NCBI RefSeq assembly: GCF_030811115.1
Contig: NZ_JAUSQK010000001.1
Span: 1,116,001 to 1,180,000, forward strand
Length of the DNA stretch: 64,000 bases
DNA from: Olsenella profusa DSM 13989
GTDB lineage: Bacteria; Actinomycetota; Coriobacteriia; Coriobacteriales; Atopobiaceae
Direction of reading: 5' to 3'
In this document: positions 7,241 through 54,026 of the stretch, piece after piece
How the letters are laid out: every line of letters begins with the position of its first letter
Position numbering within the stretch: the stretch's first letter is position 1
Made by a program: the position numbers and the translations under genes
Notes under the pieces: model-generated
The model's database searches: none
What the model was told of the DNA's origin: nothing
Seen by the model: only the letters and a program-made list of their open reading frames with translations

Positions 7241-7288
7241 CTTTGAGGGCGCACCGCGTCACACCTGCGAGCAGAGGGAAAGAGGGTC

Positions 7289-21859: not shown

Positions 21860-22021
21860 TCAGATGTCGTTGCCCATGGCGCGGAGCGTCTCGTCTAGCT
21901 CGTCTTTCCTGACGCGCAGCAGTCTCCCGATCCTTATGGCGGGAATCTTCTGCCGCTCGATGGGCCTGTAGACCGACGTCTTCGATACGTGCAGGTAGTT
22001 GGCGACCTGCGGCGCGTCCAT
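21860..22021 (-). CDS. Excisionase-type helix-turn-helix protein (N-terminus possibly lost)
   Basis: From the ATG at 22021 the product is 53 residues and begins MDAPQVANYLHVSKTSVYRP; the rest (IPAIRIGRLLRVRKDELDET) completes a classic HTH_17 excisionase fold. The open frame continues upstream without an ATG to about 22,135, near the IS boundary at 22,152, so a longer N-terminus may have been lost. Proteins of this family direct the recombinase toward excision. Related but decayed copies are at about 36,371-36,560 and 43,838-44,040. Confidence 0.65.
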   Translation of the reverse strand: MDAPQVANYLHVSKTSVYRPIERQKIPAIRIGRLLRVRKDELDETLRAMGNDI

Positions 22022-22152
22022 GAGGCCGTCGGGCAGGTCGCTCGCCTCGGATGTCGAGGGGGCGGCAGACCCCAGTATCTCCGCCCCGGCATTCTCGCGA
22101 CTTTCGGAACCATTATCCGATATTGTGTTCTGTCAAGATGATTTGAGCAGAG

Positions 22153-23810: not shown

Positions 23811-24255
23811 GAGTGAGCTTTGCGGATTTTAAAGCGGCTTCAACTTGTTCTCGCGTTTCCTTATTGCAATTCAGCGTCTGAGCATTCCTTCTAACCCAAT
23901 CAAAGCCGGCAACTTCCCAGGTTTTGTCTATGCCCACAACGCCTCCGTGCGCTTTTATGATTCGTGCGGCCAAACCATGGAAGTTGCATACGGTAACGTG
24001 TTCTCTTAGCGTTTTGGTATCAATGTACTTTCTAAGCCTCTCGCTAATATTGTCTCGAGCTTGATTGGTGAAGGAGACAATAAGCAGCCTTCTCCCGTTC
24101 CCTGAAAAATCGTATCGCTCAAGGAGGCCTTTTGCCCTGTAGGCAAGCGCTTCGGTTTTACCGCACCCAGCAGGCGCGGTAATCACCATGCCATAAGGCT
24201 CGTAATCGAAAATCTCCTGCTGCTCATCAGTAGCTCCGTAAGAATTAGATGGCAT
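23811..24255 (-). pseudogene. gajB: gajB 5' fragment (UvrD-like helicase, Gabija)
   Basis: About 148 codons of a superfamily 1 helicase remain, with Walker A APAGCGKTEAL, motif Ia LLIVSFTNQARDNISERL, and the segment TVCNFHGLAARIIKAHG. The ATG at 24255 overlaps the end of gajA by 11 bp, so the two were translationally coupled. The frame runs into IS copy A after Lys-Leu-Thr. The missing remainder is at 33,329-34,614 on the other strand. Joined across one CTC triplet, the two give one uninterrupted frame of about 575 codons. Confidence 0.85.
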
Positions 24256-25840
24256 TTCGGAGCACCTCGATGACACTGGAAACCCGTTGTGCAGAGGCCT
24301 CATCTAGCAACTTGCAAGCAACAACAGCACTGAGAATTTTATTTTTCTTACGCCTGCAGAACTCTGCAAGTTCATCTTCATTGGGTTTTCCCGAGTCATC
24401 TAAGATGGTGCAGGTATTCAGCATGTTTTGCGTGAACAGGCTCGATTCCCCCAATGCCTTCCATAGGCTATCCGCACCAATAGCTGCTACGTACTCCTCC
24501 TCAAGATCACGCCTTGATACATAAACAAATTTTGACGCTAGGTCTTCTTTATTGGCTCCTAACGCATTGGCCATATCTTCTTCAGCGTCTTCATCAACCA
24601 AGATGCTGATCTGGAGGCAGAACCCGTCTTCTCCAAAGATTTCTAAGACATGCGGCATCTCCCTGCATCCACCGGCTTCGAGGATTTCAATACCGTCTCT
24701 TTCAAGATGACACCCCGTGTTCCCTGCTACCTTTTCGAGCAGCATCCTATCCGATTGCCCCTCGACCGCTATAATCTGTTTCGCCGTCAGAAGCTCAATC
24801 CTGCTGCTTATCCACCACCTTGCAAGAGTCTTCTGATCTTCTTGACCCGCGAGGAAACCTCGCTTCGGCTGCACGGGAGAAAACCCTTCGCGAGTAACCG
24901 CGATGTTGTCGGGTTCGAATTCGCCAGCAACAACCCCAGAATGCGTGGCTATGACAAGCTGCCGCCCCGTACTCTTCAGAATGCGTATCAAGTTTCTCTG
25001 GGCCAATGGGTGCAAGTGGGTTTCCGGCTCATCAATGGCAATCATCCCGCCCGAATTAAGCAGGCCAAAGATGGAAAAGGCGATAAGGGCTTTGGTGCCG
25101 TCAGACTGTTCTGTCGCCTGGCGAGCAGTTCCAGACCTGCCCTCAATCTGAAGCCGGACGTTATTCAACAGATCCCCATTGATTGCGGCTTCGGGGACGA
25201 AGTGAAGCTTGTTTGCCGTAATGCCTCCGTCGAGCACGGGGTCAAGCTGATCTGCAAGGGAACCCAATGCTTCATTGAAGGCATCTGATCCGTCAATCGC
25301 ATCACTGAGAGACTTGATGGCCTCAGCTAATTTCGATTCATCTCCAGAGGCATCCACCTCTTTGAGGTAGTCGTCTACGATGGTCTTCCTACCTGGCTCA
25401 AGTTGAGTGGTTGAAAAATCGGAAGGAATCATGCTCCATCCGATGCTCTCAAGCTGCTCTCGCCTTAAATTATTATCGCCAGCGCCCTTTGGAAAGTATC
25501 GCCTAATCGTGAGATCGTCTTTGTCCAGAGTAGCTTCCATGCGAACAGTCAACGAGTTGTCTAATGCATCGTAATCATCTGGAAAAAACGACAACTCATC
25601 TTCGCTGAGCCCTTCTAGCCTAACTTCAACAGCAAAAGGTTGCTCCTCGTCCTCGAAGTCAGAGTTGTCGATGGAGTAATACAGCTGCTGTGTTGTCTTG
25701 CCAAGCGCCAGATCTATGCACCTTATGATTGAGCTTTTTCCGCTGCCATTTGCTCCTACCAATATCAAGTTGTCTCTGACATCGATGGTGCAGTTGGGAA
25801 TCCTGCTGTGGTTGTTTATGCGGATGGATGTAATTTTCAT
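24245..25840 (-). CDS. gajA: GajA-like OLD-family ATPase-nuclease (Gabija)
   Basis: In Gabija defence, GajA is a DNA-nicking endonuclease whose ATPase domain senses nucleotide depletion. The 531-residue product has Walker A LVGANGSGKSSI near residue 30, Walker B MIAIDEPETHLHPLAQ, the switch histidine region VIATHSGVV, and a C-terminal TOPRIM domain with IIAVEGQSDRMLLEKV and VDEDAEED as metal ligands. A UvrD-type helicase start overlaps its 3' end, the arrangement that defines Gabija. It is intact, but its partner is severed, so function is doubtful. Composition is AT-rich compared with the core. Confidence 0.87.
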   Translation of the reverse strand: MKITSIRINNHSRIPNCTIDVRDNLILVGANGSGKSSIIRCIDLALGKTTQQLYYSIDNSDFEDEEQPFAVEVRLEGLSEDELSFFPDDYDALDNSLTVRMEATLDKDDLTIRRYFPKGAGDNNLRREQLESIGWSMIPSDFSTTQLEPGRKTIVDDYLKEVDASGDESKLAEAIKSLSDAIDGSDAFNEALGSLADQLDPVLDGGITANKLHFVPEAAINGDLLNNVRLQIEGRSGTARQATEQSDGTKALIAFSIFGLLNSGGMIAIDEPETHLHPLAQRNLIRILKSTGRQLVIATHSGVVAGEFEPDNIAVTREGFSPVQPKRGFLAGQEDQKTLARWWISSRIELLTAKQIIAVEGQSDRMLLEKVAGNTGCHLERDGIEILEAGGCREMPHVLEIFGEDGFCLQISILVDEDAEEDMANALGANKEDLASKFVYVSRRDLEEEYVAAIGADSLWKALGESSLFTQNMLNTCTILDDSGKPNEDELAEFCRRKKNKILSAVVACKLLDEASAQRVSSVIEVLRNAI

Positions 25841-25946: not shown

Positions 25947-25975
25947 CGGCAGACCCCCGCCGCTCTTTTTTTCAT
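25947..25975 (+). terminator. Hairpin with T-run upstream of gajA
   Basis: AGCGGC and GCCGCT pair around a short loop and are followed by seven T residues on the plus strand. It points away from gajA (which is transcribed on the minus strand), so it would end transcription coming from the left; no such plus-strand gene lies to its left now. This fits a segment that has been moved or inverted. Confidence 0.5.
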
Positions 25976-25984
25976 CAGTCCGCA

Positions 25985-26222
25985 ACCTAGCGAGCTTTAG
26001 CGTGGCCTAACGTCCCGTGTGGCTTTGCGCACGCGCCCCCCAACAGGTATCTCTCTGCTTGTCCCGTCGAAAGGACGAGACTCCTTGGGCCTCGTTGCGA
26101 CCCGAGGGCACCAGATGCAAGACGAGAGGACGGTAGGCCACCCCATGAGAGACGACATCCTCCAGATGCCACGCAACGCGTTCCCGGCGCCCACCGGAAT
26201 ATCGGTGTTGATGTTCACTAAG
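25985..26222 (-). repeat. Dispersed island repeat, copy at 26.0-26.2 kb
   Basis: Read on the minus strand, this roughly 220-bp stretch matches 36,561-36,783 over nearly its full length with scattered changes (both include GTGGCATCTGGAGGATGTCG and GAGGCCCAAGGAGTC). A more decayed relative lies at 48,573-48,715. It holds no convincing gene. The copy here is reversed relative to the other two, which agrees with the proposed inversion of this segment. Confidence 0.7.
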
Positions 26223-33328: not shown

Positions 33329-34614
33329 CTCACTTGTCTGATGATGAAGTAATGAGAAGCCTTCAGGAACAGGCAAAGAATGGAGCGGTTGGCCAGCTTG
33401 CGGTGGCCATGGAAAGCAAAAGGGTCGAAGCGCGTGTCGTCACCTATGACGATCAAATACGAACCGCTCTGTGGGTACTGCAGGATGATAAAGTCGCCCG
33501 GCTTTATCAGAACCATTTCTTTGCTGCGCTTGTGGACGAGTTTCAGGACTTGACCCCCCAGCAATTGCGACTGGTCAAAGCCCTGTGTGGAGACAACATT
33601 ACTTTCGCCGGTGACCTCGCGCAGAGCATCTTCTCTTTTGCTGGAGCGGATCCTGACTATACCTATCAAGAGATTTCTAACAGTACGAACAAGCAGATAA
33701 AGCTCTTGAAATCTTTCCGTTCAGCACCTGCCGTCCTTAATGCAGTTAACTCGCTTTCCCAAATGACACACAGTGAGCAACTTGTGGCCGCCTTTCCCAA
33801 TCATTGGGGTAACAGTGGGCTCTCAGCATTTGCCTCCTTTGATAATGAGAGGACTGAAGCAAGTTGGATTGTCAAAATGGCACAGAGGATTTTGCAACTT
33901 TGCCCAAATCAGCGCGTTGGAGTCATCACTAGAGTCGGCTTCAGGATAAAAGGCGTAAAAGATACGCTGGCTGCAAATGGAATCCAGTATACCGACTGGT
34001 CGAGTGGCATATTCAGGCCGGAAATCGCGAGAGCCCTTCGACATACATGCGATGACCTGTTAAGTAGAGCTACAGAGGGTATTAGTTTCAAAAGCAAGCT
34101 AGATATCTACCGATACATAGTTGAAAGAACAACTTTGCTGCAGAGCGGTACGCATGCGGAACTTGAAGATGCCTGCTCCTGGCTATTTGACCAGGTATTG
34201 GAAAGAGACGCTAACCTGTCCCGGGCATCTGAAATAAGGGAAAGCATTTGCGAGATGCGAGGCGATGAGAGCTTTGCGACGCGCAAGGGCATACATTGCT
34301 TAACGGGTCATACTGGCAAAGGACAACAGTTCGATTGGGTGTTCATAGTCGGGCTTGATAAAGGCTCAATTCCCTTTTACAAAGCTTCTACCGATCAAGA
34401 GATTGGAGAAGAGGCACGAGTTCTCTCTGTAATGATTTCACGTGCAAGGATTGGATTTGTTACAACTTCCACGGAAATCAATGCATACGGATACTCTAGG
34501 GAGCCATCATCTTTTCTTTCATTGCTTCAAAGTGCTCCAGGTTTTATCTGTGGGAGCGACTGCATAGTAGATTGGTGCGCCAAAGCAGATTGGCAAGGCA
34601 TATCGAAAATATAG
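33329..34614 (+). pseudogene. gajB: gajB 3' fragment (UvrD-like helicase, Gabija)
   Basis: The fragment runs directly out of IS copy B. It holds Walker B FFAALVDEFQDLTPQQL, motif III FAGDLAQSIFSFAGADP, motif IV LKSFRSAPAVLNAV, motif V HTGKGQQFDWVFIVG and motif VI RVLSVMISRARIG. These are exactly the helicase motifs missing from the 5' fragment at 23,811-24,255. With the CTC triplet counted once, the codons read Lys-Leu-Thr-His-Leu-Ser-Asp, in frame across the junction. A TTG at 33,334 could start a headless product without Walker A. Confidence 0.85.
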
Positions 34615-36370: not shown

Positions 36371-36560
36371 CATGCTCTGGCGGGGATCTTCTGCCGCTCG
36401 ATGGGCCTGTAGGCCGACGTCTTCGATACGTGCGGGTAATCGGCGACCTGCGGCACGTCCATGAGGCCGTCGGGCAGGTCGTTCGCTTCCGATGCCGAGG
36501 AGGCGGCAGATCTTTAGCTTCTCCGCCCCGGCATTCTCGCGGCCTTCCGCATCATTATCC
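36371..36560 (-). pseudogene. Remnant of excisionase-like HTH gene
   Basis: The minus strand encodes a piece matching the HTH protein at 21,860-22,021 (including a stretch corresponding to SVYRP and MDVPQVADY) plus its upstream region, with the C-terminal third missing and small changes. It does not form a continuous start-to-stop gene. It lies 7 bp after the DUF4143 gene and joins the repeat at 36,561. Confidence 0.6.
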
Positions 36561-36783
36561 GATGTTCCCGATGGCTCCGGGAACGCGTCGCGTGGCATCT
36601 GGAGGATGTCGCCTTTCATGGGATGGCAAACCGTCCTCTCGCCTTGCATCCGGTGCCTTCGGTTCGCAAGGAGGCCCAAGGAGTCGCGTCCCCTGGACGG
36701 ACAAGCAGGGATGTGCCTGTTGGGAGGCGGGAGGCGTGCGTGCAAAGCCTAGCGGGGCGATAGGCCACGCCAGGGCTCGCTAG
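36561..36783 (+). repeat. Dispersed island repeat, copy at 36.6 kb
   Basis: This stretch aligns with the reverse complement of 25,985-26,222 for about 220 bp (shared GTGGCATCTGGAGGATGTCG, GAGGCCCAAGGAGTC, CTGTTGGGAGGCG-like). Its last 130 bp also resemble 48,573-48,715. Open frames here lack protein character, so I treat it as non-coding. Confidence 0.7.
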
Positions 36784-36823
36784 ATTGAGGTTCGGAAGCG
36801 ATACAACTGCCTACCGCTGTTAT

Positions 36824-41621: not shown

Positions 41622-42320
41622 ATGACCTACTGCGTCGAAAGCGAGATTGCAGCCTTCGAGAAGGGCGAAGGGCTCGACCTGACGGCGACGCCCAATCCCG
41701 AAGATGTCGACGCCGCGTGGTGCCTGCGGTTCCTGCGGGCCATCCGCGACGTCGCGTTCGCCACCGTGGGAACCGATGGGCTGCCGAGCGTGCGTATCAT
41801 CGATGTCATGGCCGTCACGGGCGCCCGCCTGTACTTCCTTGCGCCGCGCGGCAAGGCATTCCACGATGACGTGATGCGCGAGCGATTCGTGGCCATCGTA
41901 GGCCAGACGCCCGACTATCGTACATGCCGTATCCGCGGGCGCGTCGTGCATCCCGAGGGCGAAGCAGCGCAGCATGCGCTCGTCGACGCCATCTTCGATC
42001 TGAACCCCTCGATGAACCTGCTCTACTCGGGCAAGAACCGCTGTATCTGCGACGTGTTCTACGTCGAGGAGGGCGGGGGAGAGTACTTCGACCTGGGCCA
42101 GAATCCCGTCTACCGCAAGCCGTTCAGGATTGGCGGCAAACTGGATGCACGTGGCACGTTCCTCGTTACAGATGCCTGCATCGAGTGCGGGACCTGCGCC
42201 GCTGTCTGTCCGGAGCAGTGCATCGCGCTCGGCAGCCCCTACGATATCGACCAGTCCCATTGCCTGCGCTGCGGCATCTGCCAGGAGGCGTGTCCCGTGC
42301 AGGTGATTGTCAAGCGATAG
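41622..42320 (+). CDS. PNPOx-like flavin protein fused to a 2[4Fe-4S] ferredoxin
   Basis: Residues 1-150 resemble the pyridoxamine-phosphate-oxidase-like split barrel (FATVGTDGLPSVRIIDVMAV), which usually binds FMN. Residues 180-232 form a two-cluster ferredoxin (CIECGTCAAVCPEQCI and CLRCGICQEACPVQ). The protein is likely a cytosolic flavin/iron-sulfur electron carrier. It sits between the NAD(P) reductase and the sirtuin, 10 bp before the latter. I chose ATG 41,622, preceded by GGAAAGGGA; an in-frame ATG at 41,601 is possible. Confidence 0.85.
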   Translation: MTYCVESEIAAFEKGEGLDLTATPNPEDVDAAWCLRFLRAIRDVAFATVGTDGLPSVRIIDVMAVTGARLYFLAPRGKAFHDDVMRERFVAIVGQTPDYRTCRIRGRVVHPEGEAAQHALVDAIFDLNPSMNLLYSGKNRCICDVFYVEEGGGEYFDLGQNPVYRKPFRIGGKLDARGTFLVTDACIECGTCAAVCPEQCIALGSPYDIDQSHCLRCGICQEACPVQVIVKR

Positions 42321-42330
42321 GAGCCGAGGC

Positions 42331-43191
42331 ATGGAAAAGAAAAGCTATGCGCAGACGCTCACCGAGCTCCGCGATGCAATCGATGCCGCCGACGCCATCG
42401 TGGTCGGTGCGGGCGCAGGTCTTTCGATCGCAGCTGGGCTCACGTACTCGGGCGAGCGGTTCGAACGCTACTTCGGCGACTTCATCGAGAAGTACCGCTT
42501 CCGCGACATGTACTCGGCTGGGTTCTTCCCGTTCCAGACCCTCGAGGAGCAGTGGGTCTACTGGAGCCGCCACATCTGGTACGACCGCTACGTCGAGCCG
42601 CCGAAGGACACGTACGCCAAGCTGCTGCAGCTCGTGCAGAGCAAGGACTTCTTCGTCATCACCACGAACGTCGACCACCAGTTCCAACGCGCAGGCTTCC
42701 CTAAGGAACGGTTGTACTACACGCAGGGCGACTACGGCTTGTGGCAATGCAGCGTGCCGTGCCACGACAAGACCTACGACAACTATGAGACCGTGAAGCG
42801 CATGATGGAGGAGCAGCGCGACATGCGCGTGCCGACAGAGCTCGTGCCCCACTGTCCTGTATGTGGCAAGCCCATGGTCATGAATCTGCGGGCCGACAAC
42901 ACGTTTGTGGAGGACGAGGGATGGCGTGCAGCGGCCGAACGCTACCGCGACTTCCTGAAAGCCCACCAGGATGGTAGGGTCCTCTTCCTGGAACTGGGCG
43001 TGGGCGCGAATACCCCTGCCATCATCAAGTACCCGTTCTGGCGCTACACCTATGCAAACCCCGAGGCGACCTATGCCTGCGTGAACTATGGCGAGGTGTA
43101 CATGCATCCCGACATCCGCGACCGCTCAATCCTCATCGACGCCGACATCGACCGGGTTTTAGAAGACATATTGGGAGGGCAAGATGGATAA
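42331..43191 (+). CDS. Class M sirtuin (SirTM-like ADP-ribosyltransferase)
   Basis: The 286-residue protein has the sirtuin NAD-binding motif IVVGAGAGLSIAAGLTYSG, TTNVDHQFQRAGF and a TQGDYG segment, and a CPVCGKP zinc pair. The sequence matches the macrodomain-associated sirtuins (SirTM), which in streptococci and staphylococci mono-ADP-ribosylate a lipoylated GcvH-like protein, reversed by the neighbouring macrodomain protein. Here it overlaps a macrodomain gene by 8 bp, but the usual lipoate ligase and GcvH-L genes are absent, so its target is unknown. Confidence 0.85.
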   Translation: MEKKSYAQTLTELRDAIDAADAIVVGAGAGLSIAAGLTYSGERFERYFGDFIEKYRFRDMYSAGFFPFQTLEEQWVYWSRHIWYDRYVEPPKDTYAKLLQLVQSKDFFVITTNVDHQFQRAGFPKERLYYTQGDYGLWQCSVPCHDKTYDNYETVKRMMEEQRDMRVPTELVPHCPVCGKPMVMNLRADNTFVEDEGWRAAAERYRDFLKAHQDGRVLFLELGVGANTPAIIKYPFWRYTYANPEATYACVNYGEVYMHPDIRDRSILIDADIDRVLEDILGGQDG

Positions 43192-43750
43192 CAACCGCAA
43201 GCGAGAGCTGTTGAAGAGCCTCGTGACCGGCCTCTGCGCCGGGCGCGGCTACGAACAGCCGAAAATGGATGACGTCGGCGAGCTGTGAACCGCGTTCCGC
43301 GCTCTCGTGAACACGCGCCCGCTGAGTCCGGCAAACGACGAGTGGCTTGCGATGCAGGACGAGCTGCTGCAGGGCATGATTGCCGAGGCGGACGTGAGCA
43401 CGGCGGACGACGCGACTCCCTCGTCTGGCGACCCGCGTCTGCGTCTGTGGCGCGGCGACATCACCACGCTTGCGATGGGCGCAATCGTGAACGCCGCGAA
43501 CAGCCAGATGCTCGGCTGCTGGGTGCCAGGCCACCATTGCATCGACAATGCCATCCAGACGTTCGCGGGCGTGCAGCTGCGCTCCGAATGCGCGCGCATC
43601 ATGGAGGAGCAGGGGCACGAGGAGCCTACTGGCACAGCCAAGATCACGGGCGCATACAACCTGCCGTCAGGTCACGTCATCCATACCGTGGGGCCCATCG
43701 CGAACGGCCATCCAGTAGCATCTTTTGGAACCAAGACCACCCGTCAATAG
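43184..43750 (+). pseudogene. Macrodomain ADP-ribosyl hydrolase, nonsense-mutated and truncated
   Basis: From ATG 43,184 the frame runs 34 codons to GDDVGEL-like sequence, then TGA at 43,286-43,288 where relatives carry a tryptophan (TGG to TGA would explain it). The same frame continues TAFRALVNTRP, RLWRGDITTLAMGAIVNAAN, GCWVPGHHCIDNAIQTFAG and SGHVIHTVGPIANG, clear macrodomain motifs, then ends in unrelated residues at 43,750, short of the normal 250-270. Both lesions suggest loss of the enzyme that reverses SirTM modification. Confidence 0.85.
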
Positions 43751-43837
43751 TCGGGAGCTTTTTATTCAATCCCCGTGTATGCCGTCGAACTTATTCTTCC
43801 TAACACACAGGCGGGCTTTTAATTCTAATTGCAGAGA

Positions 43838-44040
43838 TCTGGCGCCTTTCGATGGGTTTGTAGGCCGACAATCGCGAGGCGTGTAGGCACTCGGCAACCT
43901 ACGAGACGCTTGGCAGGGCGTCATCCCAGTCGCATGTAGTCGTATGCATCTTCGGTTGAGGAGGAGCCAGACTCCCATTTCATTGTCTTGACATTCTCGC
44001 AACTCGCGTTTTCATCATCGGATGTCTTGTCTTTTAAGGC
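43838..44040 (-). pseudogene. Decayed excisionase-like HTH remnant
   Basis: This stretch weakly but continuously resembles 36,371-36,560 and 21,915-22,135 (shared CTTTCGATGGGTTTGTAGGCCG-like start, then GACATTCTCGCAACT and TCATCGGATGT). No frame survives. The remaining bases from 43,751 to 44,190 hold nothing else recognisable. Confidence 0.45.
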
Positions 44041-44194
44041 ATTGGCACCGAGCGCGGGGATTCACCGTGGTTGAGATGGTGCAGTCACGAGGCGCTTGTG
44101 GCATGCCGGCAGGAAGACCGGTTGAGATGGCTGTGCCCAACCGAAACAGCGATGAAGGGCTCTCTGGTACCATTAACCACTTAGAATCTGTCTC

Positions 44195-44875
44195 GTGGCA
44201 GTCATGGCCCGGCGGGATCGAGGAGGCATGGGCGGGCGAGCGCACATATCATCGAGGCGGACGGCGAGTGCCGGCTGCCGCTGGAACCACAACTCCGCGT
44301 ACTACCCCGAGCTGGTCTCGGACGCCGCACTGAGGGGCGGAGTTGCCCTCGACGTGGGTTGCGGGGATGGGGCGCTCCTGGAGCTTCTGGCCGGAGTCTG
44401 CAGGCATGTCGTGGGGGTGGAGGCGGACCCCGCCACCGCGCGGACGGCCGCCGGCAGGGTCGCAGGCAGCGGCACCGTCATCTGCGGCGATTTCATGGCT
44501 GCCCAGGATTTTGCCCCGGAGGAATTCGATACCATAACCTGCGTCGCGTGCCTGCACCACATGCCGCTCGAGACGGCGCTCGTTCGGATGGCGGAGCTGC
44601 TGCGGCCCGGCGGCAGGCTGCTCGTCGTCGGACTGTCAGCGAACAAGACCATTGCGGACTGGCTGCTCTCCGCTCTCATGGTCGTCCCCGCGAGGGTGTC
44701 AGGATGGCTCCATCACGAGGGCACCTACCAGGGGATGAGGGTCGCCCGGCCCTGTGAGTCCCTGGACGAGATTCGCGCTGTTGCAGGCGAGCGACTCCCC
44801 GGCGCACTTGTCAGGAGGCGTCTTTACTGGCGCTACTCCCTTGAGTGGACAAAGCCCTTCACTGTGCAGTCCTAG
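44195..44875 (+). CDS. Class I SAM-dependent methyltransferase
   Basis: The core of the protein has NHNSAYYPELVSD, motif I VALDVGCGDGALLELL, the acidic GVEADPAT, FDTITCVACLHHM and LLRPGGRLLVVG. This is a small-molecule or UbiE-type methyltransferase of unknown substrate. The start is uncertain: GTG at 44,195 gives 226 residues, while ATG at 44,228 right after GAGGAGGC gives a shorter form. It stands alone between the excisionase remnant and the IetAS-like pair. Confidence 0.8.
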   Translation: MAVMARRDRGGMGGRAHISSRRTASAGCRWNHNSAYYPELVSDAALRGGVALDVGCGDGALLELLAGVCRHVVGVEADPATARTAAGRVAGSGTVICGDFMAAQDFAPEEFDTITCVACLHHMPLETALVRMAELLRPGGRLLVVGLSANKTIADWLLSALMVVPARVSGWLHHEGTYQGMRVARPCESLDEIRAVAGERLPGALVRRRLYWRYSLEWTKPFTVQS

Positions 44876-45059
44876 CGTCCGTACCCCGCTTCGGACTCTG
44901 CCCTGTGGCAGGGCCCTCTCTTCTTGGGGGAGCCCTCGCGGCGACCTGACTTAACCCGACAAGCTGCCATATGGTTACTTACCATCAACTATCGAAGCGC
45001 CTCTTTCACGCCAGCCTGATGAGCGATAAAATTTGAAAGACATAGATAGGAGGTGTCTC

Positions 45060-46025
45060 TTGGCAACCGGCGAACAGGTGAAGGCTCTCATCAAAGCCCA
45101 CTATGACCAGGATAATGAGCGTTTCAAGACTACGGCATTGCGCATAGCGGCATCCGAGACGCGCATCGGCCATACCACTCTAGGCAGGGAAATCACCGCC
45201 ATGGTCGACGCATCCACTCGTACGAAGGGCAATGTCATCAATCTCGCGAACAAGGACAATCTGTTCCTTGTCTCATTCCCTGGGGTTAGATTGGGCGACT
45301 TGGTAGTCTCGTCGGAAATCACCGAGAAGATCAACCGTATGCTGGCCGAGTATCGCCAAAGGAAGAAGCTCGCCTCGTTCGGCCTGAGCTGCCGCCGCAA
45401 GCTCCTGCTGGAGGGAGAGCCGGGCACTGGCAAGACGATGACGGCGTCGGTGATTGCAGCCGAGCTCGACATGCCTCTGTTCATCGTGCAGACCGACAAG
45501 CTCATCACGAAGTACCTTGGTGAGACCAGCACTCGGCTTCGGCAAATTTTCGATACCATCGCCAGCAACCGTGCCGTCTACCTGTTCGACGAGTTCGACG
45601 CCATCGGGGCCGACCGCAGTAGAGACAACGAGGTTGGCGAGATGCGTCGCATCCTGAACTCCTTCCTGCAGTTCATAGAGACAGATACCTCCGAGAGCAT
45701 CATCATCGCCGCCACGAACAACAGGAAGATTCTCGATCAGGCGCTCTTCCGCCGCTTCGACGACGTCATGCACTACGAGCTTCCCACCGTCAACGAAGTC
45801 AAGCGCATCGTGGCTAATCGCACGGGCGCCTATGACCCGGCGTTCTCCCTCACCGATGGGACGGCCAGCGAGCTCTCGCAACTCTGCCAGGCCGACATCA
45901 CGCGCCTTTGCGAGGATGCGGTGAAAGAATCCCTGCTGACCGATTCTTCGCTGTGCGACGAGCTTTTCCAGCGTCTCTGCGCGGACAGGCTGTCCGTATA
46001 CAACAGCGAGGATAAGGTCGGCTAA
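45060..46025 (+). CDS. ietA: IetA-like AAA+ ATPase
   Basis: The 321-residue protein has a conserved N-terminal helical region, Walker A LLEGEPGTGKTMTASVIAAE, Walker B AVYLFDEFDAIGADR, sensor 1 IIIAATNN and the arginine-finger region ALFRRFDDV. It is followed 5 bp later by a subtilisin-like protease gene, the two-gene layout of the IetAS anti-phage system. The ATPase may remodel or recognise a phage component and control the protease. The start is TTG at 45,060, five bases after AGGAGGTG; an in-frame TTG at 45,033 lacks such a site. Confidence 0.8.
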   Translation: MATGEQVKALIKAHYDQDNERFKTTALRIAASETRIGHTTLGREITAMVDASTRTKGNVINLANKDNLFLVSFPGVRLGDLVVSSEITEKINRMLAEYRQRKKLASFGLSCRRKLLLEGEPGTGKTMTASVIAAELDMPLFIVQTDKLITKYLGETSTRLRQIFDTIASNRAVYLFDEFDAIGADRSRDNEVGEMRRILNSFLQFIETDTSESIIIAATNNRKILDQALFRRFDDVMHYELPTVNEVKRIVANRTGAYDPAFSLTDGTASELSQLCQADITRLCEDAVKESLLTDSSLCDELFQRLCADRLSVYNSEDKVG

Positions 46026-46030
46026 GCAGC

Positions 46031-48538
46031 ATGGAGAGACCGAATCTCATCCTCGCAAATACGTGCCACCAAGAGCCTTATACAGCCCCTCAGAGCGGTC
46101 GGGGTAAACCACCGATTGCGCGCAACCCCACATTGCACGCAGCGAAGCTCAACAAGGAGTTGCAAGACGCATTTGCTGCGGATGATGATAGAAGAGCACA
46201 TGCTGTTGCTGACAGGCATGGAATCTATCTTGAGTTTACAGGCCCTCAAAACGGCGATTTGGCCACAAAGAGCTTGGAGGATGTACGGCAGGGTGTGCGC
46301 CTTCTCAATGTTCGCGAAGAGGACGGCGCCATGCGGGCGACTGTGTTTATCCCATCTGGGAAAGAACACTTTTTTCTTGATAGGGTGAAGGCATATGGCG
46401 ATCCGCACCAGGTCACCAAGAAGGGCAAGCCTCGCCACGAGAAACTGGTGTCTAGCATCGAGGATATCCGTCTGGCCATCGTCGATTCCCTCTGGACAGG
46501 CAGCGATGGCAAGCGTCCAGCAGACCAAAAGCAATGGCTCGAAATCTGGCTCCGGACAGGCAAGGATGAGGATGGCGGATCCTTCGAAGCGTATGCGGCG
46601 CTGCTCGATACGCTCCATATCGAGCACAAGAGTACCTTCATCTTGTTCCCCGAGCGCATGGTCACGCTGGCATATGCTAGCAAGGCCGATCTCGCCAGCC
46701 TCCTGAACAGCTACGATGGCCTTGCCGAGATAAAGGAGGCGCCCCTCGCGTCATCGTTCTTCGCCAACCTCGAGGCATTCGAGCAGCGCGAGTGGATCGA
46801 CGACCTATTGAGCAGAACGTCCTTTGCGTTTGGCAGGGCAAGCATCTGCATCCTCGACACGGGCATCAACAGCGGACATCCGCTCTTGTCCCCAGCCGTC
46901 GATGGAGATGTCGTTCTGGCTTATGACGATGCGCTGGGAACCGAAGACCGAGACAACCACGGTACCAAGCTTGCGGGGCTGGCCCTATATGAAGATCTGA
47001 AGGATAGCTTGTCATCTGCTGATCCGATTGAGGTGACCCACACCGTCGAGTCCGTGAAGATTCTGGACATGAACAGACAAAGCGAGCCTGACTTGTACGG
47101 AGACATCGCCAAGCAGGCGATAGACAGGGCTTTCGTGGCAAAGCCGAAGAGGAACAGGGTCTTCTGCTCCGGAGTTACTGCCAATGAATCCGAAATTACT
47201 GATGGTTTGCCTACCTCTTGGTCTGCCGCGCTTGACGAGGCTATCTCCCACGCGGACGACCCCTCGAGCGAGCATGAGTTCGTGCTTGTTTCCGGTGGGA
47301 ATATTCCATTGTCTATGCTGAATGGAACAGTCTATCCCGAGGCGAACGAGATCCGCTCCGTCCGTAGCCCAGGCCAATCGTGGAATGCGCTGACCGTCGG
47401 GGCATACAGCGAAAACGCTCTGGTCGAAGAGGATGACATACTGGCCACAGGCTACGAACCCGTTGCGATGCCAGGAGAGCTGTGTCCGCTTAGCACGACC
47501 TCCCTGCAGTGGAGGCATTCGATTGCGCCGGTGAAGCCCGAGATCGTCTGCCCCGGTGGAAACATAGTTGGGATGAATAGCGACTATTCAGACTGTCAGG
47601 ATTTATCGTTGCTGACCACTGGCTCTGATGTAGCATCGCGCCCGCTTGACACCGTCAACGCGACGAGCGCGGCAGTTGCCGAGGCTGCCTATATGGCGGC
47701 TGAGCTGGAGAATGCCTATCCAGACCTATGGCCCGAGACGGTAAGGGGCCTGCTAGTGCATTCCGCCCGCTGGTCACGAGCGATGATAGACAGATACTCG
47801 CCCAAGGGGTCGCCCGAGGACACGGCCACGAAGGGGCGCAGGAGGCTGCTTAGGGCTTGCGGCTACGGCATACCGGACTTGAGCCGTGCAATCGAATGCA
47901 GGGAGAGTAGCGTCAACCTCATCATCCAAGAGGTTCTGCATCCGTATGAGGTGAAGGATGGCCGTGAGACGATGAGAGAGATGCACCTCCATGCGCTACC
48001 TTGGCCAAAGGACGTGCTCATTTCGCTTGCCGACGCCGACGCGACGCTCCACGTGACACTTTCCTATTTCATCGAATCAGGGCCGGGGCAGATCGGATGG
48101 AAGGACAAGTATCGCTACGCTTCGCATGGCCTTCGCTTCGATGTGAACAAGCCAGGTGAGAGCAGGGATGAGTTCGAGAAGCGCATCAACGTCAGCGTTC
48201 GCGATGAGGACGAGGGCAAAACATCGAGCGGCTCTGGCGACTGGTTTCTTGGCGTCAACAATCGAAACGTGGGCTCGATTCATTCCGACTACAAGTATGC
48301 ATCCGCAATTGAGCTGAGCGATATCGAGTTTGTTGCCGTGTATCCAGTGATTGGCTGGTGGAGGTCCCGCAAATACCTCGGAAGGATTGACTCCGAGGCG
48401 CGATACTCGCTGATAGTGAGCATCGAGACGCCTGGCATGGAAACTGATCTCTATTCGGAGATTACCCAGGTGATAGAGAGCACGTCGGCAACGGCCGTCC
48501 CTATCACTGTCACCGGCATACAGCAAGCCGATCTCTAG
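46031..48538 (+). CDS. ietS: IetS-like S8 subtilisin-family protease
   Basis: The 835-residue protein has a long N-terminal region (1-270) and an S8 domain with the catalytic triad: aspartate in ICILDTGINSGHPLL, histidine in DNHGTKLAGLA and serine in VNATSAAVAEAAY. A beta-rich C-terminal region of about 250 residues follows. No signal peptide is visible, so it is cytosolic, as expected for a defence protease rather than a secreted enzyme. It is almost fused to the AAA ATPase gene, 5 bp apart. Triad intact, so probably functional. Confidence 0.83.
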   Translation: MERPNLILANTCHQEPYTAPQSGRGKPPIARNPTLHAAKLNKELQDAFAADDDRRAHAVADRHGIYLEFTGPQNGDLATKSLEDVRQGVRLLNVREEDGAMRATVFIPSGKEHFFLDRVKAYGDPHQVTKKGKPRHEKLVSSIEDIRLAIVDSLWTGSDGKRPADQKQWLEIWLRTGKDEDGGSFEAYAALLDTLHIEHKSTFILFPERMVTLAYASKADLASLLNSYDGLAEIKEAPLASSFFANLEAFEQREWIDDLLSRTSFAFGRASICILDTGINSGHPLLSPAVDGDVVLAYDDALGTEDRDNHGTKLAGLALYEDLKDSLSSADPIEVTHTVESVKILDMNRQSEPDLYGDIAKQAIDRAFVAKPKRNRVFCSGVTANESEITDGLPTSWSAALDEAISHADDPSSEHEFVLVSGGNIPLSMLNGTVYPEANEIRSVRSPGQSWNALTVGAYSENALVEEDDILATGYEPVAMPGELCPLSTTSLQWRHSIAPVKPEIVCPGGNIVGMNSDYSDCQDLSLLTTGSDVASRPLDTVNATSAAVAEAAYMAAELENAYPDLWPETVRGLLVHSARWSRAMIDRYSPKGSPEDTATKGRRRLLRACGYGIPDLSRAIECRESSVNLIIQEVLHPYEVKDGRETMREMHLHALPWPKDVLISLADADATLHVTLSYFIESGPGQIGWKDKYRYASHGLRFDVNKPGESRDEFEKRINVSVRDEDEGKTSSGSGDWFLGVNNRNVGSIHSDYKYASAIELSDIEFVAVYPVIGWWRSRKYLGRIDSEARYSLIVSIETPGMETDLYSEITQVIESTSATAVPITVTGIQQADL

Positions 48539-48572
48539 AAATCTTGAACTCAGAACGATATCGTTAAGACGC

Positions 48573-48715
48573 GTTTCCTCGGTTCAGGGTAGACGCCCTC
48601 CATGCGGGTATCCTGTGATTCCAAGGGGCCGCGTCTTTTGGATGGGCGTGCAGAGATGTGCCTGTTGAGGGGGCGCATGCAAAGCTTTGTGTGAACTAGG
48701 CACGTCATGCTATGG
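48573..48715 (+). repeat. Dispersed island repeat, decayed copy at 48.6 kb
   Basis: The stretch resembles the last 130 bp of the repeat at 36,561-36,783 (shared GCGTC..TGGA.GG, GATGTGCCTGTTG, GCAAAGC and a trailing CACG.CA..GCT). The rest of the 48,539-48,930 gap is AT-rich and shows no gene. Confidence 0.5.
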
Positions 48716-48930
48716 CTTGATATGAGCTTGAATTTTAGCGGCACCACAGTGACTGGGAAGCATTCTGCCGCCGCCGTTTCGTGAGTGGACTGGCAACATC
48801 AGTATGACGGTCCGTTTCTTGCTTGCAACGTAGATGCGCGTTTTCAATGCGATAAAAATTTTCCAAGTCATGGGTTGCGTGCGAAGGCAGAATACTCCAT
48901 GCACATCGGAAGGGAAAAGGGACTTGGCGT

Positions 48931-50393
48931 TTGACACGGCCGATAAGATTATTCGCTTCAGAGATGAGTTCTAGGGCAGGGGAAAGCCCTCCGGGGTGGA
49001 GTGGCTTCTATTACGACGAGACGAACAACTTCAGAAGACTTAAGGCCGGGAAGGCTCTAATCGAATCTCCTGGCGGAACTCACATTGCATCAGACAGCCT
49101 CGAGAAGAACTTCGTGATAGGCGGGGTTGCGTTCGCTACCAAGGAAGCCGAGGAGGCAACCAGACGGGCTTTTGCTGACCAGCAGTTCCCGACTTCGCCA
49201 GACAGCCAAAGCGGCAAGCGCGAGACGAAATGCAGGCAGATCTGCATCGGGCACAATGCCATCCAAATCCTAACCAACACCAGAGTTGGGAGAGTGAGTG
49301 ACTTCCTGAGGTTGCTGGACAGGGATGACGTCTACGTTCACGTCAGCACGACTAATGCCTTCCTCTATTACATCGTTTCTGAAATTGTCCAGAAGCTGGC
49401 ATGGATTCTAGGGACAGACGACAAGGGCATCGACTACAGCTCACACTTCCTAGAAGACATACTCTACGACATCGCGAGAGACGACAAGGCATCGCTTGTG
49501 GAAACCCTTAAGTGCTGGGGATATCCGTCCATGGATCATGCCCCAGACATTAGAGAGTTTTGCGATGCCCTCGAAAAGCGCGTGGAGAGTGCTGGGGACT
49601 CGACTCTCTGCGGCTATTCACTTAAACGTGACCCCATGAGACGGTATGGGCTGAGACGTCTGCTTCGTCACGTTGCAATGAAGTGCATTCTTATAGGGAG
49701 CAGCTCTGATGAGCGGCTGAGAATCAGTCCGGGAGATGATTGCATAGTCGACTCCCTCTGCGACTTTTACTGGTCGCCCTGCCTCGTGTGGTACCCCTCC
49801 TCGCACCATGTGTTCGATGAGGAAACGACAGTCAAAGAAAAACTGGAGTCCTTGCTCCCCGAGGGAACGATTATTAATGGTGAGATGCGCAATTCCGCCG
49901 AGGACACGATGATTCAAGCCTTGGACATTTGAGTTGGCCTGTATGTCAAATATGAAGAGCTGCTGGATGACTATGTGGCAAAGATGATTCTGCCGAATTA
50001 CAGAGTGAATCCCAGGCACCTTTCGTCAGAGGATGTGACGGGGGAAATCACTGCGAGGATTGAGGCGGAGAAAGAGCAGCTTGATGTCCTGTATAGGGCA
50101 AGCGGAAACAAAATTGCTCATAACGTTGCCCTGAGGGGCTGCAAAGCAAATTCGAAAGGGAGCTCGACGCCAGCGCACGCGAGCTAAGTCTCCCAAATAC
50201 GGATGAGGCCACTCAGGGTGCTGCTGATGCTATTCTGAGGCGGCTAAGCGAGACGGGCAAGGAAAGCATCCGCTTGATTAGCAGGCTTATCGTCAAATCA
50301 GTCGATGCGGACGAATACATGTACCACATCGAAGATAGCGAGACTGTTTACCAGCTTAGGGTGGGCCTGGTAAAAGCGCTTGCCGCATCTTGA
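48931..50393 (+). pseudogene. DUF3800-like protein gene with nonsense and frameshift lesions
   Basis: From TTG 48,931 the frame encodes WSGFYYDETNNFRRLK near the N-terminus, similar to the acidic start of DUF3800 proteins (putative nucleases), followed by FVIGGVAFATKEAEEATRRA. It meets TGA at 49,930-49,932 inside a QALDI-x-VGLYVKYEELLDDY stretch, then continues in frame to about 50,135, where the loss or gain of one base in AGGGGC shifts to a frame reading LQSKFERELDASARELSLP through YQLRVGLVKALAAS and a stop at 50,393. The original protein was about 485 residues. Confidence 0.7.
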
Positions 50394-50678
50394 GCTCCTA
50401 AGGAATCCGGTACAACAACGATATCCACAGCCAATCGTAATGCCGAGCACTCTTTTGAAAGGCAGTAGGAGACGGGGCTCAGTTGCGAGTTACAAATGGT
50501 CATTTCCGCAGTCCCGGCATTTGCTCCCAGTGGGTTGTGTTTATTCTCGGCTTCGCGTGCTGAAGCGGAACTCAGCACTGAGTTCCAGGTGAGTTCTGGT
50601 TTTGGGACGATTTCGCGGACGTGAAAATAAACATAGCCGATGGTCAGACGGCTCGTTGGGTTTATGCTTCCCTGTTTT

Positions 50679-50699
50679 GCGTCTATCGAGTGGGAATAG
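50679..50699 (+). other. att-like core, distal end (site 5)
   Basis: TCTATCGAGTGGGAATAG repeats the guaA terminus and still spells Ser-Ile-Glu-Trp-Glu-stop. Unlike the other copies it has no TGACTAC arms. It is the last copy I can find and probably marks the right end of the guaA-anchored island series. Confidence 0.65.
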
Positions 50700-51080
50700 A
50701 TAAAAACCTTGTTCAGGGCTTTGTATGAGTACCATTTTCATGCATTTGGCTACCGCCTCTTATACGGTTTTGGACAGGAAGCGCGGGAGTAAATAATCAA
50801 CGAAGTGCTTCGGACCTACTGGCCGGAGCCCTTTTCATATGCCCGATTACCTGCGGTTTTACTCCTCATTGGCGATGCTGCGCGTCCAAAACCATGAAAG
50901 AGTGGCTACGAGAGCACATGAGACATTACGGAAATGCAGTGATGGGGCTTTTGATACAGCCCCTTCCGTTGGGCGCGGCCTGGGCTCCTGCAGCCGTTCC
51001 CACGGCCTTTAGCGTTCCTTTGGACAGCCTGCCCAAACTGGGAGATGAAAGGTTGGACGGCAAAGAAGGAAGGAAACGAC
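50700..51080. other. Gene-free stretch after the island
   Basis: Open frames here have no recognisable protein character, and no repeat, RNA or strong promoter was identified. The preceding 50,394-50,678 is similarly empty. Confidence 0.5.
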
Positions 51081-51280
51081 ATGACGAGATGCGTTCTGGA
51101 AACGCGTGGGTTCGTGAAACGCTTCGGGCGGGGAGGCAGCGCCCAGACGGCGGTGGACCACGTATCGCTGTACGTCGATGAGGGGAAGGTCTACGTGCTG
51201 CTCGGCCCCAACGGCGCGGGCAAGTCGACCACGCTCAAGATGATCGCGGGCATGCTGCATCCCACCAAGGGCCACGGCCT
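51081..51280 (+). pseudogene. ABC transporter ATPase, 5' fragment
   Basis: About 65 codons of a BcrA-type ABC ATPase remain, starting [17 protein letters not shown] and including Walker [21 protein letters not shown]. After LHPTKG the sequence becomes unrelated. No signature motif or Walker B is present. It lies beside a complete TetR/ABC exporter operon but reads as a separate, deleted transporter. Confidence 0.75.
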
Positions 51281-51371
51281 GCATCAGGCCGCGTACGTAA
51301 CCGACGACACGCATGCAGGGCGCGGCTCCAAGCGTGGCGCCGCCGTTGCCCCGCAGTGCGCCCCTCGCCGC

Positions 51372-51950
51372 TCACCCGAGCATCGCCTTAGCCGGGCCGC
51401 GCAGAACGGCGGAGCGCGCCGTCGCGACAAGCTCTTCGAGCGGCATGTCGCGGTCCGACGCGAGCCAGCGCGCGTACATGCCCAAAAGCATGCTCGACGT
51501 CCCGTAGAAGACGAGGGCCTGCCGCTCGGACATCCTCTCGATGCCGACGTGTGCGCAGACCACCCCCATCGCGGCCAGGCGCGCCCGCTCGACGAAGGAT
51601 GGGTCGGCCCCGTTGAGGAGCACGGCGAGGTGACCGAAGTGGTCCCCGAGCGCCTCCTCGATGCACCGCGCGGTTCTTGCGCATCCCCTGCGTCCTCCCG
51701 GCGCGAGGGCTGCGAGCACCTCCGGGAAGAGAACTTCCTCGACCCGCTCGGATATCTCGGCCTCGCATTGGTCGCGCACGTCGTAGACGCTCGAGAAGTG
51801 CGTGTAGAACGTGGACCGCGTGATGCCGGCTCTTCCGCACACCTCGCGCACAGTGATGCGCTCTATAGGGTCGTCCCTCATGATCTCGAACAGACCATCG
51901 GTGATGCGCCGCTTCGTCGCCGCCACGGTCCTGGAATCGCATTCTCCCAC
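51372..51950 (-). CDS. TetR-family regulator
   Basis: The 192-residue protein has the TetR N-terminal HTH ([20 protein letters not shown], then [17 protein letters not shown]) and a helical C-terminal ligand domain. I chose GTG at 51,950, preceded by AGGAGG; the longer upstream reading covers the intergenic operator region and lacks homology. It is divergent from the ABC exporter genes at 52,064-54,026, which it probably represses, with an inducer yet unknown. Confidence 0.88.
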
Positions 51951-52029
51951 GGGTCCTCCTCCCGGAAATCGGACACATCCGCCCGTTCTGTCGCTTGAAC
52001 GGGGGTGGGGCTCCCCGCACAATGAAATC

Positions 52030-52042
52030 GGACACGGTGTCC
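52030..52042. promoter_or_regulatory. Palindromic operator between tetR-like and ABC genes
   Basis: GGACACGGTGTCC is a perfect palindrome around one central base, 21 bp before the ABC ATPase start. The half-site GAAATCGGACAC occurs again near 51,965. A TetR dimer binding here could control both divergent units. Confidence 0.6.
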
Positions 52043-52063
52043 ATTTTACGGAAGGAGGCTGCC

Positions 52064-52813
52064 ATGGGTCAAGAAACGGCACTCGTGCGGGTCGAGTCCG
52101 CATCCAAGAGCTTCGGGAGGAGACGCGTGCTCGACGAGGTGTCGTTGGAGGCGCACTGCGGGCAGGTCGTGGGGCTCATCGGCCCCTCCGGGTGTGGCAA
52201 GACGACGCTCGTCAGCCTCGTCGTCGGGTCGGCGGTCCCGAGCTCGGGCCACGTCTTCCTCGACGGCGAGGAGGCCCCCTATCCGACGATGCGCCCGAAA
52301 CTCGGCTACATGCCCCAGGACGCGGCCCTCTACGAGGGCGTCACCGCCCGCGAGAACCTAGCCTTCTTCGGGGCGCTCCAGGGGCTCTCCCGCACGCAAA
52401 TCCGCATACGTGAGGCGGAGCTGCTGCCGCTCCTTGGTCTGGAGGACGCCCGCGATCAGCTCGTCGGCAGCTTCTCGGGCGGCATGAAGCGCCGCCTCTC
52501 GCTCGCCGTGGCGCTCGTCGCCAAGCCCGACATCCTGGTGATGGATGAGCCCACGGTGGGCCTCGACCCGGTGCGGCGCATCGAGCTCTGGAGCCTCTTC
52601 AGAACGCTCGCCGACGGGGGTGCCGCGCTGCTGGTGACCACCCACGTCATGGACGAGGCCGCCCACTGCGACGTCGTCGCTCTGATGAGGGAGGGCGCTC
52701 TTGTGTCTGTCGGCTCGCCCCGGGTGATTCTCGAGTCGACATCGACGGGAAGCTTGGAGGAGGCCTTCGTCGCCCTCGTGGGGCCGAAGGGGAAGGAGAC
52801 CGACCATGCGTAG
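52064..52813 (+). CDS. ABC exporter ATP-binding protein
   Basis: The 249-residue protein has Walker A IGPSGCGKTTLVSLVVG, the Q-loop YMPQDAALYEG, the signature FSGGMKRRLSLAVALV, Walker B ILVMDEPTVGLDP and the switch VTTHVMDEA. This is the DrrA/CcmA-like class linked with ABC-2 permeases that export drugs or lipids. The ATG at 52,064 follows GGAAGGAGG. The gene overlaps the permease by 8 bp. Confidence 0.92.
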   Translation: MGQETALVRVESASKSFGRRRVLDEVSLEAHCGQVVGLIGPSGCGKTTLVSLVVGSAVPSSGHVFLDGEEAPYPTMRPKLGYMPQDAALYEGVTARENLAFFGALQGLSRTQIRIREAELLPLLGLEDARDQLVGSFSGGMKRRLSLAVALVAKPDILVMDEPTVGLDPVRRIELWSLFRTLADGGAALLVTTHVMDEAAHCDVVALMREGALVSVGSPRVILESTSTGSLEEAFVALVGPKGKETDHA

Positions 52814-54026
52814 CCTGCTCGCGGTTGCCCGCCGCATCATCGCGGAATTCGCCCATGACCGGAGGGTGGTCGCGGTGCTCGTCCTTGCCCCCTGCGTCAC
52901 CTTCCTCCTGTTCTACCTCGTTCTGGGCGTGCCCCCCTACGTGCCCCGGCTCGCACTCGTCAACGTCCCCGACAGCTTCGTCTCCTACCTCAGCAACGAG
53001 AACTGCGCCCTGCAAACCGCCAACGCCCAGGAGGCGCAGCGGCTCCTCGAGGCGGCGGAGGTGGACGCCGTCGTCTCGGCGGGCGACGGCCACGTCCTCG
53101 AAGTGCGCGTCGAGGGCGCGGACGCCTCGCACACCGCCGCCGCGCTATCCATCATCCGCTCCGCCCTTGTCAAGCAGCAGGAATCCGCTCGCGACGAGCT
53201 GCTTTCCCAGGCGGGCGAGTTCGAGGAGCGCATCGACTCCATCGAGTTCGACATCGACGACGAGACGCGCTCACGCCTGCCCGCCGGAGTTCTCGAGGCG
53301 ATAGAGGAGGCGGAATCGCTTGCAAGAGACGTCCCCGACGTGGAAGGCGCCATGCCCTTCACGTCCATCGAGGTCGGCTACCTCCACGGCCGGGCCGACT
53401 GGACCGTCTTCGAGTACTACGGGCCGGTCTTCATCGGGCTGTTCGTGTTCATGTTCGTCTTCATGACCGGCTCCATGAGCCTGCTCGCCGAGCGGACCTG
53501 CGGCACGAGGGAACGGCTGCTCACCACACCCGTGAGGGGCTGGCAGGTCGCTGGCGGCTACACGCTCGGATTCGGCTTGGTGGCCCTGCTGTACACGGCC
53601 GTCACGATCGCCTTCACCGTGTGCGTGGTGGGCTTCCCGAACGAGGGCTCGCCGCTGCTCGTCGCGGCCCTCGCAGTCTCCATGGCGGCGGTGTCGCTCA
53701 CCCTGAGTCTGGCCGTCTCGGGCCTGGCCAGGAGCCCCTTCCAGGTCATCCAGCTGCTGCTCGTGTTCGTCATACCGCAGCTGATGCTTTCGGGCATCTT
53801 TGACCTCTCCCAAGCGCCGGCATGGCTGCGGGCCGTCGCCTCGGCGCTGCCGCTCGGCTACGGGGCCGAAGCCTTGCGCGACGTCATGCTGCGCGGAGCG
53901 GGGCTCGAGGCGGTAGCTGCCCCCCTCGCCATCATGTGGGGCTTCGCCGCCCTCTTCTTCGCCCTGGCGTGCTTGAGCATGAGGCGGCCGCAGGTCAGGC
54001 GAGCCGGGCTCTCCTGGCCCCGATGA
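52806..54026 (+). CDS. ABC-2 type exporter permease
   Basis: The 406-residue protein has one N-terminal membrane segment (VVAVLVLAPCVTFLLFYLVL), a long extracytoplasmic loop of about 170 residues and five more membrane segments in the C-terminal half (FIGLFVFMFVFMTGSMSLLA, then ERTCGTRERLLTTPVRGWQV as the coupling helix). This is the YhgE/ABC-2 topology. It forms the exporter with the preceding ATPase under TetR control. The substrate cannot be inferred. Confidence 0.9.
   Translation: MRSLLAVARRIIAEFAHDRRVVAVLVLAPCVTFLLFYLVLGVPPYVPRLALVNVPDSFVSYLSNENCALQTANAQEAQRLLEAAEVDAVVSAGDGHVLEVRVEGADASHTAAALSIIRSALVKQQESARDELLSQAGEFEERIDSIEFDIDDETRSRLPAGVLEAIEEAESLARDVPDVEGAMPFTSIEVGYLHGRADWTVFEYYGPVFIGLFVFMFVFMTGSMSLLAERTCGTRERLLTTPVRGWQVAGGYTLGFGLVALLYTAVTIAFTVCVVGFPNEGSPLLVAALAVSMAAVSLTLSLAVSGLARSPFQVIQLLLVFVIPQLMLSGIFDLSQAPAWLRAVASALPLGYGAEALRDVMLRGAGLEAVAAPLAIMWGFAALFFALACLSMRRPQVRRAGLSWPR

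Follow-up and report, generated by a model that had tools for sequence, protein, structure and literature searches.

The window analysed here, a 64,000-nucleotide (nt) stretch of the genome of Olsenella profusa DSM 13989 (contig NZ_JAUSQK010000001.1, positions 1,116,001 to 1,180,000), carries an AAA ATPase gene directly followed by a subtilase gene. We consider it likely that this pair is an IetAS defence module, that its neighbours, a methyltransferase gene and a decayed DUF3800-like gene, are separate modules joined at a recurrent element termed R1, and that exchange inside R1 explains the company in which the pair is found. The pair would add a divergent cytoplasmic branch of IetAS from gut-type Actinomycetota.

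Identity and Distribution of the Gene Pair

The ATPase gene starts with TTG at 45060, preceded by an AGGAGG-type site, and its stop codon occupies 46023-46025. After a spacing of 5 bp, the subtilase gene follows on the same strand, with an ATG start at 46031 and a stop codon ending at 48538. The best PADLOC profiles of the two proteins are IetA (6.4e-67; residues 14-315 of 330 on profile positions 5-318 of 374) and IetS (8e-29), and the corresponding Pfam matches are AAA (PF00004, 1.1e-28) and Peptidase_S8 (PF00082, 2.3e-49). Walker A (GEPGTGKT), Walker B (LFDEFDA) and the FRRFD motif are invariant across seven aligned IetA sequences, while D276, H310, N424 and S546 of IetS are invariant in seven aligned sequences and again in 17; judged by these alignments, both active sites are complete. 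Neither protein has a hydrophobic leader, the best 12-residue Kyte-Doolittle mean within the first 46 residues being 0.33 for IetA and 0.08 for IetS. The structure model of IetS (mean predicted local distance difference test score, pLDDT, of 69) aligns best with secreted subtilases (Z 23.3, root-mean-square deviation 3.3, 375 residues), so that the structural search left IetS among the subtilases and not in another family.

Ratios of nonsynonymous to synonymous substitution (dN/dS) amount to 0.12 for IetA and 0.13 for IetS when compared with G352, a metagenome-assembled genome of the Atopobiaceae, and to 0.08 and 0.12 when compared with G220. Both genes are evolving under purifying selection. 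A preliminary description of this DNA had proposed an ietA-like and an ietS-like gene 5 bp apart, with all catalytic motifs visible and no signal peptide, and had assigned them to IetAS; each of these points is confirmed, and the assignment agrees with the sequence profiles, the gene order and the IetS fold.

The pair is best classified, from its sequence, as a divergent and cytoplasmic branch of IetAS, a known kind of system that was reportedly first described by Gao and colleagues in 2020. With IetAS as defined in PADLOC it shares the adjacency of ietA and ietS, the combination of an AAA ATPase with an S8 protease, the catalytic residues and the location in a variable region. Unlike the characterised members, it falls far under the NCBIfam equivalog cut-offs, and its nearest plasmid-borne relatives are at most 39% identical.

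Combining an AAA domain with a protease is also the logic of FtsH and the proteasome ATPases, which match IetA too, more weakly, and the pair might on this ground be taken for an ordinary house-keeping couple without a role in defence. The distribution speaks against such a role: IetS matches occur in a patchy manner in 13 of 396 genomes of the class (three of the 13 being weak), and IetS is absent from G169, a genome of the same species. Together with the ranking of the profiles and the position of the pair near Gabija and AbiE-like genes, this makes the house-keeping interpretation improbable.

Relatives of IetS were further found in four viral contigs, in two phages and in 465 plasmid records, every one of the latter below 60% identity. 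For the comparison of neighbourhoods, we pooled 92 IetS loci, comprising 84 from named genomes (the best 80 of 572 in the scan of these genomes were taken) and viral contigs, seven further ones, and the window itself; the duplicates L023 and L028 were excluded. IetA lies immediately upstream of IetS on the same strand in 78 of these loci, and the remaining 14 include cut contigs and broken frames.

The Flanking Genes

Both genes beside the pair had been recognised correctly in the preliminary description, one as a methyltransferase dependent on S-adenosylmethionine (SAM) and the other as a decayed DUF3800-like gene, and both had been considered as possible additional components of the system. 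The methyltransferase starts more likely with ATG at 44228 than with GTG at 44195. Its first residues are scrambled relative to G352 and identical letter for letter to G126 in the part compared; because this 5' end is common to G126, the gene looks intact. Its dN/dS relative to G352 is 0.27.

Close to its 5' end, the DUF3800-like gene has an in-frame TAG and a shift of frame; a TGA at 49930 and another frame change near 50134 follow, whereas the homologue in G352 is a single open frame of 520 residues. In the surviving middle part, 18 silent and 20 amino-acid changes were counted (dN/dS 0.30). A 333-residue piece of the protein matches the PADLOC candidate profile PDC-S51 at 3.9e-33, and the open G352 homologue resembles annotated plasmid DUF3800 proteins at 24-28% identity; 39 plasmid records match, and DUF3800, hypothetical or unannotated entries account for 19 of the 20 listed rows when checked by name. 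Neither the window protein nor the G352 homologue is matched by the Pfam DUF3800 model (PF12686), and the window copy is a pseudogene. The protein occurs in three of the 396 class genomes, and no relatives were found in viral contigs. A passage in PMC10910872 reports an RNase H-like fold for DUF3800; the structure model obtained here (mean pLDDT 34) is too poor for a comparison of folds.

Relatives of the methyltransferase or of the DUF3800-like protein stand beside IetS in two of the 92 loci, the window and L043, which carry the same block, and relatives of both in two of the 49 loci with at least 3 kb on each side. IetAS pairs 86% identical to that of the window occur in G220 and G227 without either neighbour. 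The methyltransferase, in turn, is found at 1e-25 in eight of the 396 class genomes, mostly without IetS, and close copies occur without an adjoining IetAS; in G301, methyltransferase and IetS lie on different contigs. Because the neighbours accompany IetS in so few loci and other genomes carry the methyltransferase without IetAS beside it, they look like unrelated passengers and are not supported as components of the system.

A four-gene system, in which the methyltransferase might mark self and the DUF3800-like protein act as a nuclease, would agree with the identical gene order in two genera (the window and G352) and with the location of both neighbours on the strand of the pair. We find it hardly credible, given that this order goes back to a single block, that the closest IetAS relatives lack both genes, and that the DUF3800-like gene of the window is dead while IetA and IetS are conserved. 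The idea of additional components was rejected on these grounds, and the neighbourhood comparison thereby removes a tempting hypothesis that appears to be wrong.

The R1 Element

R1 is, as predicted from its DNA, the divergent control region of a small and often decayed gene for an HTH_17 protein, and it recurs in Coriobacteriia. A model built from seven seeds (model R1) found 21 places in 14 of 140 genomes of the family, and a longer model (R2) found 32 places in 21 of the 396 class genomes, two other families of the order included. Full copies contain the beginning of a 105-residue HTH_17-domain protein (PF12728, 1.2e-15 to 1.7e-9 in the four intact copies scanned), encoded on the opposite strand. 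G227, G264, G078 and G082 have an open frame for it, which the majority of the other copies have lost or hold in broken form; the protein is detected at 1e-20 in nine of the 140 family genomes. Only the R1 core remains before IetA (G220, G227, G202) and before the DUF3800-like gene.

R1 DNA had no match in plasmids or phages. Relatives of the HTH_17 protein were absent from viral contigs, and plasmids gave partial matches only (at most 59% of the query, in six plasmids). No paper describing an R1-type element was found in the open-licence literature. A further R1-type HTH_17 gene lies on the minus strand of the window at 21863-22123, 86% identical to the intact G264 protein over residues 19-105, and is adjoined by a transposase-like frame at 22184-23773.

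Some copies can be folded into small hairpins, which would suit a structured RNA leading the defence genes or the helix-turn-helix (HTH) gene. R1 has no Rfam match, and its consensus folds are weak on both strands (-5.7 kcal/mol for 343 columns, -1.6 kcal/mol for 206), which renders a leader RNA very improbable.

HTH_17 is the domain of many excisionases. R1 might on this account be a mere relic, left from the excisionase end of one family of integrative elements that happen to have defence cargo; it would join modules through chance homology and have no regulatory role. We give this explanation about an even chance. Downstream of the HTH gene, G264 and G009 encode a small HTH protein and next an IstB/DnaA-type ATPase (G264) or a look-alike judged by its sequence start (G009), a gene order expected of mobile elements; in addition, the HTH gene is broken in the majority of its copies. 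On the other hand, one tblastn query detected no integrase beside R1, except in L023 and as a fragment in L024, and the R1 core has outlasted the HTH gene ahead of IetA and the DUF3800-like gene.

More tentatively, and with clearly lower probability, R1 could serve the anti-phage genes of Coriobacteriia as a common element for control and exchange. It would then be the operator region of the HTH_17 protein placed before unrelated systems (IetAS, Gabija, Dodola, ApeA-like, AAA_15, PHP-AAA and DUF3800-like), at which defence modules are swapped and on which one regulator acts in trans where the local HTH gene has been lost. If R1 were a true control element of this kind, one could directly test whether unrelated defence systems are co-regulated and exchanged as modules, and R1 would offer a handle for finding unannotated defence genes, such as those of the 384-, 340- and 390-residue proteins described below.

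Exchange Inside R1

Over the 1600 positions leading up to CCTGTTGGGAGGC within R1 (36716-36728), the window genome and G169 show 5 differences; past R1 they share nothing. At this exchange point, GGGAGGC is doubled in the window genome. In a second comparison, G349 matches copy a of G126 upstream of R1 (AbiE; 80% over 1508 nt) and copy b of G126 downstream of it (87% over 703 nt); the AAA_15 module between copies a and b is missing from G349. These two cases show one side of R1 kept and the other exchanged, with the switch inside R1, a pattern in which modules change partners at R1. The route may be general recombination between repeats or a dedicated recombinase. A third case, G391 compared with the window genome, shares an upstream DUF4143 ATPase (94% over 1481 nt) and nothing downstream. 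It fits an exchange, but the identity falls gradually, and only the two clearer cases were counted.

Diverse defence genes beside one conserved element are also a feature of defence islands and of the defence cargo of mobile elements, of which Tn7-like cargo is an example (in a passage of PMC8649781). The present arrangement differs in that its common part is the predicted control region of an HTH_17 gene, which contains the exchange points, and no transposase or integrase could be tied to R1.

Genes Following R1

Neighbours were examined at 31 R1 places, leaving out one further weak place of model R2 in G353. The first same-strand gene is supported by PADLOC at 11 places, encodes a PHP-AAA protein with weaker support at two, and encodes an unknown protein at four. 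Among the 24 places that did not seed the first model, the counts are six, two and three, with 13 having none, an opposite gene or no data; among the 10 places first found by the longer model, they are one, one and zero, with eight in the last category.

IetA comes first after R1 at three places (one a relic), the DUF3800-like gene at two, GajA of Gabija at two places of one species (in G169, GajA 9e-261 and GajB 7e-276), DolA of Dodola at two (in G078, DolA 1.4e-67 and DolB 1.4e-121), and an ApeA-like PDC-S58 protein at one; at one more place an AAA_15 protein follows, with a 103-residue frame in between. Upstream of R1, AbiE (G126, G349) and a DUF4143 ATPase matching PDC-S01 were found, among others. 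As a control, 6 of 20 arbitrary long open reading frames from the same genomes match some PADLOC model at 1e-10, e.g., a UvrD-type helicase. Because single PADLOC matches are so common, the list suggests and does not prove statistically that R1 precedes defence genes; its better part consists of the complete two-gene systems, Gabija, Dodola and IetAS. The claim for R1 therefore leans on the exchange evidence and not on these counts.

Several side observations concern the same places. The Gabija system of the window (23650-25840 on the minus strand and 33334-34614 on the plus strand; GajA 9e-261) looks broken, with GajB in two pieces ~9 kb apart on opposite strands and a transposase-like frame beside one piece; the system is whole in G169. 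Proteins of 384, 340 and 390 residues directly follow R1 at L198:8789-9943, L200:5704-7004, L208:359-1381 and L206:5880-7052; they have no Pfam or PADLOC match and are candidate defence genes. In different families of the order, proteins with ATPase regions directly follow R1 at L202:7071-9575 (834 residues) and L241:6769-9321 (850 residues), the latter with a PHP domain (PF02811) at 9.6e-5, below the cut-off. Four R1 copies (36665-36797 of the window, L205, the L201 element at 7262-7501, and L244) have 75-90% similar sequence past R1, which runs towards an opposite-strand gene for a short protein that looks zinc-ribbon-like by eye. Since these copies face an opposite-strand gene, R1 cannot in every case be the leader of whatever gene follows it.

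Proposed Action and Points Against It

The action of the pair, that of an ATPase-controlled protease answering phage replication, is one we infer from the family and from one introductory passage, in PMC10732053, which names phage replication proteins as the trigger of IetAS; a passage in PMC9958689 described the mechanism as still awaiting description in 2023. The ATPase IetA would restrain or feed the cytoplasmic subtilase IetS. Upon sensing a product of phage replication, activated IetS would cleave host or phage proteins and halt phage production, probably sacrificing the cell. The two flanking genes would be separate modules gathered in the same island and joined at R1, where exchange replaces one side and keeps the other. 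Such exchange would explain both why these genes adjoin and why close relatives have other neighbours.

Several observations weigh against this account. The window proteins miss the NCBIfam equivalog cut-offs for the characterised pair (IteA/IteS), with 190.7 of 510 and 31.5 of 900 bits, so the function is transferred over a long distance and the pair is filed as a family member only. The IetA gene of the window is preceded by the methyltransferase and not by R1, and its homology to R1-bearing IetA loci begins at 45017. Finally, 14 of the 31 R1 places have no close same-strand gene, an opposite gene or no data.

Block Edges and Feature Coordinates

The pair lies in a block that is colinear with G352 (Table 1), and it is this comparison that defines the edges. 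The preliminary description had regarded the segment as bounded by att sites, which was not borne out: the longest exact direct repeat joining the edges is 9 nt, no better than in 200 shuffles (mean 8.6, maximum 13), and no tRNA was found at the edges in the window.

Table 1. Coordinates of the pair, its neighbours, R1 copies and block edges in the window
Feature	Position	Strand	Remarks
R1 copy before the GajA gene of Gabija	25972-26213	-	GajA at 24245-25840, minus strand
R1 copy with decayed HTH_17 frame	36541-36797	+	Exchange point relative to G169 (see text)
Macro-domain gene truncated at the left block edge	43307-43713	+	Context, not part of the system
Block colinear with G352	43715-50698		94% identical, different flanking context
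Decayed HTH_17 remnant, divergent to the methyltransferase	43821-44022	-	tblastn with intact G264 HTH protein, E 6e-6, two pieces; frames broken
SAM methyltransferase (class I, Methyltransf_11), probable passenger	44228-44875	+	PF08241, 1.7e-17; open frame from GTG 44195
ietA	45060-46025	+	AAA ATPase, 321 residues; PADLOC IetA, PF00004, invariant motifs
ietS	46031-48538	+	S8 subtilase, 835 residues, without leader; PADLOC IetS, PF00082, invariant catalytic residues, subtilase fold
R1 core, predicted divergent control region of an HTH_17 gene missing here	48605-48732	+	Between ietS and the DUF3800-like gene
DUF3800-like pseudogene (PADLOC candidate PDC-S51)	48925-50393	+	Broken frames relative to the open G352 homologue
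Right-edge dispersed repeat of the block	50503-50698		Copies elsewhere in this genome and in relatives

At the left edge, a frame that reads by eye as SIR2-type is followed by the macro-domain gene (PF01661, 1.3e-18), the two spanning 42307-43713 up to the cut. The missing 3' part of the macro-domain gene did not turn up next to the block in the window genome; intact relatives of the two-gene arrangement occur in other genomes. To the right of the block, the sequence at 50959-53000 occurs in G169 at 99%. The idea that R1 pairs with the right-edge dispersed repeat was rejected, since the pairing was not consistent. This repeat of ~200 nt contains palindromic parts, and copies were found at L164:3480-3636 and in L143, L155, L157 and L154.

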